Source of the DNA: Halorussus litoreus
GTDB lineage: Archaea; Halobacteriota; Halobacteria; Halobacteriales; Haladaptataceae
Length of the DNA: 64,000 bases
NCBI RefSeq assembly: GCF_003382685.1
Contig: NZ_QLVG01000017.1
Coordinates: 1 to 64,000, forward strand
Reading direction: 5' to 3'
A program made the position numbers and the translations under genes. The notes under the pieces were generated by a model that was given only the letters and a program-made list of their open reading frames with translations, ran no database searches and had not been told where the DNA came from. Below are positions 5,700 through 54,000 of the stretch, piece by piece (the first letter of the stretch is position 1; each line of letters begins with the position of its first letter).

Positions 5700-5820
5700 G
5701 ACTCGGCGCGCGCGAGGAACGCGCGCGCGAGGGACGAGTGAGCGACCAGCGGGAGCGAACGAGGAGGCTGGGGAGGACGAGGTTGCGGCGTCTCCTATGT
5801 CGAGGCAGTAGCTAGCTCCG
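5700..5820 (-). repeat. Family A dispersed element, copy A1a
   Basis: Read on the minus strand, it starts with the AGCTAGCT head, has a TGCCTCGACATAGG box in place of the TTGAGCC box, then CTCCCCAGCC and CGTCCCTCGCGCG, and ends in a GC-rich palindromic tail. It faces copy A1b across about 25 nt. Confidence 0.65.
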
Positions 5821-5845
5821 TGATTCTTTGAGTGAAGGACAGATC

Positions 5846-6020
5846 GAAGCTAGCTTCTGCTTGAGCCTAGGCGTGACCGCAACCGCACAGCACCGGCACA
5901 GCACCGCGACCGCGGGCCTCGGACCTCCCCAGCCGCCTGCGCTTCTCGGGCTTCGCCCTGCGATGCTCGTCCCTCGCGCGTTTTGGCGCGCCACGGAGGG
6001 CGCGCCAGCACGCGCCGGGG
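5846..6020 (+). repeat. Family A dispersed element, copy A1b
   Basis: The head is GCTAGCTTCTGCTTGAGCC. It is followed by an ACCGCAACCGC-type stretch, CTCCCCAGCC near 5925, CGTCCCTCGCGCG at 5968-5980 and a terminal hairpin (GGCGCGCC arms, 5985-6006). The end block CAGCACGCGCCG follows. The same order of blocks is seen in the copies near 8.9, 38.5 and 54.1 kb. Confidence 0.75.
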
Positions 6021-24772: not shown

Positions 24773-24961
24773 GTCACTGGCTGAAACCACCACCGGAATG
24801 CGCTCGGCTCGACAGACCACGGGATCGCGCTCGGTGGATCATCCGCCGAGGATGCGCTCGGTGCAACAGTCCACCAGAAAGCGCCCGGTGGGACAACCCA
24901 CGTGGCCGCACCCGGCAAAACATTCCACGAAGTCGCGCTCGGTGACGCAGACTCTCGGGTG
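24773..24961. repeat. Seven degenerate 27-bp tandem units
   Basis: Units begin at 24773 (weak), 24800, 24827, 24854, 24881, 24908 and 24935, each exactly 27 nt. The shared core is GCGCTCGGTG, followed by an ACA near unit position 13 and CCAC near 18-21. The array ends at the left arm of family B copy B1. The unit keeps a 9-codon frame in both directions, but no start and stop give a credible gene. A shorter version precedes copy B2 at about 45053-45130. Confidence 0.75.
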
Positions 24962-25091
24962 GGACTGAAAGGGGCCGCCCGCTCGCGGGCCGAAGGCCCG
25001 TGGTCGTCTCCGGCGGCCCTATTCGGAGCGCCGAGCGAAACGAGGCGCGAGAATATCCGCCGGAGCGACCGCGAGCGGGCGGGGGCTTTCT
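24961..25091 (+). repeat. Family B structured element, copy B1
   Basis: Left end GGGACTGAAAGGGG (from 24961) and right end GGGGGCTTTC (to 25090). The outer stem pairs CCGCCCGCTCGCG with CGCGAGCGGGCGG. A second stem pairs CTCCGGCGG with CCGCCGGAG, and an inner one pairs TATTC with GAATA. Between the outer and second stems, GTCGT and GCGACC are conserved among the copies. Confidence 0.75.
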
Positions 25092-25217
25092 AACCGGTCG
25101 CCCCTGGAACTACCCTCGTCTCAATCATCAATCCGACAAAATCGAATTCTCCATCACTATCTCTCCTTGGAAATCCGAGGAGTGAGTTTTTCATTCGGGG
25201 AGTGAGTATCCCACTGC

Positions 25218-25547: not shown

Positions 25548-25884
25548 ACTGAATATTTTCTGATGTTTTTTGGACCGTGTTCGAAGTGCTACGCGAAGAG
25601 AGAATGGGATATCGAACGCCCTCGGCGCGCTCGACTACTGAGAAATCGAAGATATAGCCTCGAAAGCCCTCGGCGGGCTCGCGGTCGCTGGCCGACATAG
25701 CCTCGCTCGCTGTCGCTCGCTCGGATAGGGGTCGGCCAGACGACCAAGCGGTGCGCGAGCCCGCCTCGCCCTTTCAGTCCACCAGGACGTTGCTCGACTG
25801 GCCGGTCGAAGTCGGCACTCAATTGAGTGTCTCTACACGTTCGATGGTTCACGTTCGTTGCAAACTGAGTAGCACCTAGCGCGT
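25548..25884. other. Intergenic gap holding a minus-strand family B element
   Basis: No gene is supported. The gap contains copy B4 (25660-25781). The rest, up to the 3' end of the VOC gene, shows nothing I can assign. Confidence 0.6.
25660..25781 (-). repeat. Family B structured element, copy B4
   Basis: Read on the minus strand it starts GGACTGAAAGGGCGAGGC and ends GAGGGCTTTCGA. The outer stem is GCGGGCTCGCG with CGCGAGCCCGC, different bases from B1 and B2 but still paired. The second stem is TGGCCGAC with GTCGGCCA. GTCGTC, CCCCTATCCGAG and GCGACCGCGAGC are shared with B2. Confidence 0.75.
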
Positions 25885-31578: not shown

Positions 31579-31728
<150 letters not shown>

Positions 31729-31789
31729 CCGCCCTCGTGCTGACCGCCCTTGTGCCCGCCACCCTCGTGCCCGCCACCGCGACCGCAAC

Positions 31790-34973: not shown

Positions 34974-35041
34974 TGGTTGGTATGGGCGGCGGCGTGTTCT
35001 TGAATCTCTCGGTACCGGGTCGCGGTCAGGGTGAGGAGTGC

Positions 35042-35168
35042 GGATGCTGTAGCGGTCGCCGGTGTGGATGCTGTAGCGGTCGGCGGTGTGGATGCTGTAG
35101 CGGTCGGCGGTTCGGATGCTGTGGCGGTCGGCGGTGTGGATGCTGTAGCGGTCGGCGGTTCGGATGCG
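35042..35168. repeat. 24-bp tandem array, five full units
   Basis: Units start at 35042, 35066, 35090, 35114 and 35138, with a partial sixth at 35162. The core is GGATGCTGTAGCGGTCGGCG with small differences in the last bases. Both strands are open for a repeated 8-residue peptide, but no gene start or stop makes it credible. Confidence 0.85.
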
Positions 35169-35496: not shown

Positions 35497-37969
<2,473 letters not shown>

Positions 37970-44986: not shown

Positions 44987-45422
44987 TCCGCGTTTCTCGT
45001 TGGCCGGTGCTTCCTCCGCGTTTCGGTGTTCCCTCGCTGGTGGTGCAGATCGCGCTCGGTGGACCATCCACCACAACGCGCTCGGTGCCACTTTCACCGA
45101 GATTTCACTTGGTGACACCAGCCACCGGGTGGGACTGAAAGGGGCCGCCCGCTCGCGTTCACTGTAGTCGTCTCAGCGGCCCCTATCCGAGGGGAACGCA
45201 GTGAGCCGAGGATATGTCGCTGAGCGACCGCGAGCGGGCGGGGGCTTTCGGAAACGAACACGCCTCGGAACCTCGGCCCTCGTACCCACGAACCCAGAAC
45301 TCGACCTCCCACGGTGCTCACTGGGCTGAATCCGAAAATCGGAGTCCTCCCCTCAATTACTCCCCGAAGCCGAGAAACGACGAACCGACAAGGGTTTCTC
45401 CGGGACGACCGACCACGTGAAC
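44987..45422. other. Intergenic gap gltX-IMPase with repeat units and a family B element
   Basis: No gene is supported. Two to three 27-bp-type units (about 45053-45130, one of them 26 nt long) precede family B copy B2. The remainder up to the IMPase start shows nothing I can assign. Confidence 0.6.
45131..45249 (+). repeat. Family B structured element, copy B2
   Basis: Ends are GGGACTGAAAGGGG and GGGGGCTTTC. The outer stem equals B1 (CCGCCCGCTCGCG with its inverse). The second stem CTCAGCG/CGCTGAG differs from B1 yet pairs, and the inner pair is TATCC/GGATA. GTCGTCT, CCCCTATCCGAG and ATGTCG are shared with B4. Confidence 0.75.
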
Positions 45423-53884: not shown

Positions 53885-54000
53885 CGGACTGAAAGGGCGA
53901 GGGCGGTTCGGCGAACCCCGACGACACAAGCACTGCAGCGACCGCAGGGAGCGGAGTGCGCAGCGAGTCGCGGGAGCCGAACCGCCCGAGGGCTTTCGAG
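53885..54000 (+). repeat. Family B structured element, copy B3
   Basis: It starts GCGGACTGAAAGGGCGAGG and ends GAGGGCTTTCGAGG. The outer stem GGGCGGTTCGGC/GCCGAACCGCCC has different bases from B1, B2 and B4 but pairs perfectly. The interior differs more and includes GCACT/AGTGC. Confidence 0.7.

Follow-up and report, generated by a model that had tools for sequence, protein, structure and literature searches.

A 27-nt dyad array in Halorussus litoreus as the candidate amplified end-site of a dispersed, REPIN-like hairpin element

A tandem array of 27-nt units in Halorussus litoreus runs in phase into a hairpin element of a dispersed family, here called B. On balance we favor, with a confidence somewhat better than even, the explanation that the array is the locally amplified dyad end-site of this REPIN-like and probably mobile element. 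The array lies in the window, i.e., the whole stretch of DNA that was analyzed (64,000 nucleotides; contig C10 of the 3.84 Mb H. litoreus genome). The relevant features of the window are:

24773..24961, + strand: 27-nt array B1, seven units starting at 24773, 24800, 24827, 24854, 24881, 24908 and 24935
24962..25090, + strand: B1 hairpin element, GGACTGAAAGGGGC ... GGGGGCTTTC, with a GAAAG/CTTTC foot, a GGG/GGG mismatch and a long stem, based on fold and covariation
25659..25783, - strand: related element of the GGACTGAAAGGGCGAGG type, no upstream array seen
45052..45131, + strand: array B2, three units of 26, 27 and 27 nt, 3' of gltX
45132..45249, + strand: B2 hairpin element, directly after array B2
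53886..53997, + strand: related element of the GGACTGAAAGGGCGAGG type, no upstream array seen

Array B1 comprises exactly 7 x 27 nt, with unit starts located 24, 51, 78, 105, 132 and 159 nt upstream of GTGGGACTG and with CGGGTG closing the last unit. Its self-match at a lag of 27 nt was 0.57, and 0 of 2,000 dinucleotide shuffles equaled this value at any lag from 15 to 59 nt (best 0.44). The seven exact units running into B1, which a preliminary description of the window had proposed, were thus borne out, as was the shorter set of units of 26-27 nt placed before B2 and after gltX. Compared in register over their last 69 nt, the two arrays showed 54% identity excluding the common CGGGTG, while 0 of 2,000 shuffles scored as high; the two arrays therefore align better than chance.

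The connection of array and element was observed throughout the genome. Using a cutoff of at most 1 mismatch, the left end of B, GTGGGACTGAAAGGGGC, yielded 22 matches in H. litoreus and none for the reversed control. The units of this genome have their exact end at GTG|GGACTG and recur every 27 nt in the upstream direction. Using a position matrix built from them, units were found within 300 nt upstream of 20 of the 22 copies, downstream of 0/22 and never on the reverse strand, so that B copies other than those of the window do carry the array. The same matrix was used unchanged on three further Halorussus genomes, which form the independent part of this result, and found units upstream of 34 of 54 B copies (G005 11/20, G010 14/20, G017 9/14). 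Outside Halorussus 1 of 51 copies had upstream units. Controls over all groups gave 0 or 1 downstream match per group and no reverse-strand match. The restriction of the array to the genus was also visible with a sequence-only two-unit array model, which matched in 17 of 18 Halorussus genomes versus 2 of 41 others, both of the latter weakly; its weaker matches in H. litoreus include relics (L108, L117) and the array at L458 described below. Finally, 40 array loci were picked blind to B, by array score alone, in four other Halorussus genomes (G015, G002, G006, G004), with the end patterns relaxed to accept the variants of these genomes. B or a B end was found at 37 of the 40 loci (full B 26, right end only 10, left end only 1, no recognized end 3). 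The search for other array-plus-element loci, which had been suggested before, was therefore successful.

Comparison of orthologous sites showed that array and B come and go together. In the B1 intergenic region both were present in H. litoreus and in G001, and neither was present between the same two flanking genes in G003, G006, G008, G012, G015 and G017. In the B2 region, array and B were found in H. litoreus (3 units) and in G001 (7 units of 27-29 nt), and neither at the remaining gltX loci examined. This joint presence and absence argues that the array at both sites is neither an old shared sequence that B entered nor a gene end. Together with the genome-wide co-occurrence and the phase, it supports the earlier suggestion that array and element form one composite unit. 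Speaking against a mobile B, no insertion between near-identical strains was caught and no target duplication was visible, with exact boundaries blurred by the divergence of the empty sites.

The different unit numbers at B2 in H. litoreus and G001 point to a fast change of array copy number. Adjacent units were identical in two loci (L017 and L019), and unit identity at variable positions was 0.52 within a locus versus 0.40 between loci. B cores from different H. litoreus loci that were 88-90% alike had dissimilar left 51 nt (0.29-0.39), with the exception of L158/L161 of G010 (core 0.97, left 51 nt 0.71). Similar cores with dissimilar left flanks indicate that the core is exchangeable without the array, or that the array turns over fast. 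The right side of B was tandemly repeated as well, by 54-57 nt units with right-arm copies, in G005 (8/18; among them L123, L127, L129, L131 and L132), G010 (4/20; among them L145 and L151) and H. litoreus (1/18). The arrays therefore probably grow by slippage at the foot of the hairpin.

A consensus of GCGCTCGGTGACACAATCCACCGGGAA, the same as for array B1, was derived from 128 units of 54 loci and forms the dyad CGGTG...CACCG. The arms of these units showed no covariation, their pairing being equal to the column expectation, and the array folded no better than shuffles (z -0.85); RNA hairpins were ruled out on these grounds. A dyad-symmetric consensus without covariation is what one expects of a protein site rather than of a hairpin. 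The most economical reading is that a protein dimer acts on the dyad, and such binding is predicted from this pattern. Of the earlier proposal of a regulator-binding array, the protein site thus remains in agreement with the data, while a gene-specific regulator site is unlikely, because intergenic regions of all three kinds (divergent, tandem and convergent) contain copies.

Element B has a length of ~121 nt (mode 121-125 in Halorussus, 105-130 elsewhere); copies with an internal gene were absent among the measured lengths. Its left tag, GGGTGGGACT, is invariant. As single-stranded DNA, B1 (24959-25092) folded with -51.2 kcal/mol (z -5.3). The foot GAAAG/CTTTC was constant over 165 distinct arm pairs, and the three positions next to it had G opposite G with one exception, at the third position. 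Both B ends are fixed by the search pattern, so that this constancy is partly built in and the G015 variants represent what the pattern misses. In G015, 15 dispersed copies carried GAAG/CTTC and 2 carried GAAAG/CTTTC with 0 discordant copies, i.e., both sides had changed together. Stem positions 10-21 (12 bp), which are free in the pattern, were ~70-95% paired versus ~35-60% expected from shuffling in 110 arm pairs from outside Halorussus, and most of these positions showed all four pair types. Compensatory stem changes could also arise without selection by template-switch correction of quasi-palindromes; however, this process would erase the mismatch too, and the persistence of GGG/GGG therefore argues for selection.

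Of 79 relatives searched, 32 contained family B, and it was also found in many named genera, including Haloarcula, Natrinema, Natronococcus, Haladaptatus and Halobaculum. A virus-borne element was ruled out, since viral contigs and phage records gave no B match. Outside Halorussus array-less B occurred singly, after an A element (see below), or as a head-to-head pair around one ~28-nt dyad. Such pairs were found in 22 of 293 genomes, distributed over 14 of 87 genera, while the reversed control gave none. The spacers of 33 distinct pairs had a median of 28 nt, and 31/33 fell within 24-30 nt (p about 3e-18). Their half-site consensus was roughly CCAGCCGACACG|GGTGGGACTG; the halves of one spacer and the halves of different spacers were equally alike (0.39 vs 0.40), and, as a point against the preferred explanation, the left half-site was only weakly conserved outside Halorussus. 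In G035, which belongs to another genus, a different array of 26-27 nt units (GGTGGCCGGCACATCCGG...) occupied the same place before B (L192, L197, L205). Given singles, dyad-centered pairs and arrays of other sequence outside the genus, the Halorussus array is best interpreted as the end-site of B itself, multiplied in this lineage.

All 22 B copies of H. litoreus were intergenic. Between tandem genes, Halorussus copies were co-oriented with the genes in 30 versus 11 cases (p 0.004, uncorrected, loci not independent). Outside the genus no orientation bias was found (25 vs 17, p 0.28), with 21 copies in divergent and 26 in convergent regions. A regulatory element with fixed gene orientation was excluded by the occurrence of every gene orientation outside the genus. 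Intergenic copies in all orientations, variable presence and lineage-specific forms at dispersed copies fit a genome-wide spread or homogenization of B.

Further repeats were observed. The A element (AGGCTGGGGAGGNNTGAGGC) had 155 matches in H. litoreus (at most 2 mismatches; reversed control 1) and carries a GCGGTN-type tail; it is found at 5740-6010 of the window and at L378-L407, sometimes paired and sometimes adjoining a B array. Six tandem copies of an A motif, AGGCTGGGGAGGTTTG, occur at 16-nt steps at G000:C3:123164-123263. At L458 (G000:C20:42222-43744), strongly palindromic units of ~26 nt (CGCGCGACCGGTGGACGATTCACCAG) form an array with no B adjoining. The window also contains a 24-nt tandem repeat of 5.4 copies (GTGCGGATGCTGTAGCGGTCGGCG; 35038-35167), and a 134-nt C-rich stretch (31594-31734) and a run of 29 G (35956-35984), both possibly due to assembly or sequencing trouble.

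From these data we propose that family B would be an intergenic element dispersed in Halobacteria, non-autonomous and conserved in structure, comparable to an outsized REPIN. A short half-site would lie to the left of the B tag, and two head-to-head B elements would combine two half-sites to one ~28-nt dyad. In Halorussus the dyad may have been amplified to tandem 27-nt units, with B usually on one side only, and slippage or unequal recombination could let the arrays grow, shrink and homogenize locally. The putative dimeric protein bound to the dyad would recognize or move B, and array length would determine the number of its sites.

A different relation of both parts would be given if B were a short mobile repeat that inserts beside dyad or palindromic units, as SMR-A of Haloquadratum does, and the array served as its landing pad. 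This is rather unlikely in our judgment, although B resembles SMR-A (about 110 bp) in size and in its prominent terminal inverted repeats and, as far as the diverged empty sites can tell, likewise shows no target duplication. Moreover, dyads adjoin B on a single side or on both, some loci have the abundant A element at a unit boundary as well, and core identity is decoupled from array identity; alike cores with unlike arrays keep this explanation alive. It is contradicted by the near absence of arrays without B or a B end in the blind sample and by two examined inverted pairs, which sit between ordinary genes and not in transposons. In addition, the four TnpB or IS605-type loci of H. litoreus contain no B, B ends or units, which rules out IS605/PATE palindromes as the source of the units, and Haloquadratum plasmid PL100 has no B end within 1 mismatch. 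Improbable as well is a neutral satellite, a functionless array whose neighboring 27 nt are copied by slippage when replication stalls at the foot of the hairpin. The right-side tandem repeats, the local homogeneity of the units and the array fold, which does not exceed that of shuffles, are in agreement with it. However, unit and dyad consensus are common to unrelated loci throughout the genus, while pure slippage would produce locus-specific flanks; a neutral satellite accounts for the growth of the array, but not for the common starting unit.

The two remaining explanations concern host functions. A DNA-topology or chromatin element of the host (a BIME-like site for gyrase or a nucleoid protein) or a transcribed regulatory RNA is very improbable. 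The intergenic location of all H. litoreus copies, their co-orientation with genes in Halorussus and the strong structural constraint on the stem would be expected for it, whereas the missing orientation bias outside the genus, the differing presence in close relatives and the lack of a match to any of 4227 Rfam models, even at E 1, are not. The chance that the array is what erosion has left of a gene ending in 9-residue repeats, as also considered in the preliminary description, is close to negligible. It is true that 27 nt equal 9 codons and that some frames are open at B1. Nevertheless, units elsewhere measure 25-29 nt, several frames are equally open, and related genomes contain no intact gene ending in the repeat, nor an array, between the same flanking genes. 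Empty orthologous sites and variable unit length thus rule out a coding remnant.

With the amplified end-site as the preferred explanation, B and its array were compared to known systems. A search of papers outside the subscription literature, with the end sequence on both strands, returned only unrelated work, and an earlier description is possible. A text search for haloarchaeal REP elements gave no match. The array resembles CRISPR as a short periodic repeat array, and GTGGGACTGAAAG is similar to the 3' end of haloarchaeal CRISPR repeats. CRISPR was rejected, since the H. litoreus genome has no Cas1 (PF01867) match and the 27-nt units are degenerate and adjacent, unlike constant repeats with unique spacers. 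PATEs and other IS605-derived haloarchaeal elements are, like B, short, palindromic, non-coding and present in many copies, but PATEs are without the inverted termini of B. SMR-A of Haloquadratum walsbyi is about 110 bp long, has prominent inverted termini and tens of copies, and inserts without target duplication, its targets being palindromes close to the termini of PATEs and IS605-type transposons (PMC3119063). B is similar in size, inverted paired termini, copy number in the tens and adjoining palindromic DNA. B was not found here in the PATE/IS605 elements that SMR-A targets, and it shows tandem arrays and head-to-head pairs, which are unreported for SMR-A in the accessible part of the paper.

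The closest resemblance is to the REP/REPIN/BIME sequences of bacteria, which are mobilized by RAYT. REPs are defined as imperfect palindromes of 20-40 nt with a GTAG or CGTC tag (PMC3733652). Like them, B is intergenic, dispersed and non-coding, carries an invariant 5' tag beside an imperfect hairpin with conserved mismatches, and forms clusters, arrays and head-to-head pairs with a fixed short spacer. It differs in its hairpin of about 121 nt, its tag and the tandem dyad arrays at one end. No Y1/RAYT-type transposase (PF01797) was found in H. litoreus or in G010, which has 28 exact B copies; this speaks against the preferred explanation and rules out a RAYT-driven REPIN. A tentative possibility is that B represents an order-wide archaeal class of REPIN-like, structure-recognized mobile DNA without RAYT, in which a predicted protein would read out a long mismatched hairpin from the dyad site, with the dyad multiplied to satellite arrays in one genus. 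As RAYT transposases are tied to REPINs in bacteria, one would have to ask by what means such a widespread haloarchaeal counterpart spreads or is maintained. In the hunt for this protein, a sharp recognition signature is provided by the constant GGG/GGG mismatch in a stem that otherwise covaries freely, and the arrays offer natural copy-number variation of the presumed binding site.
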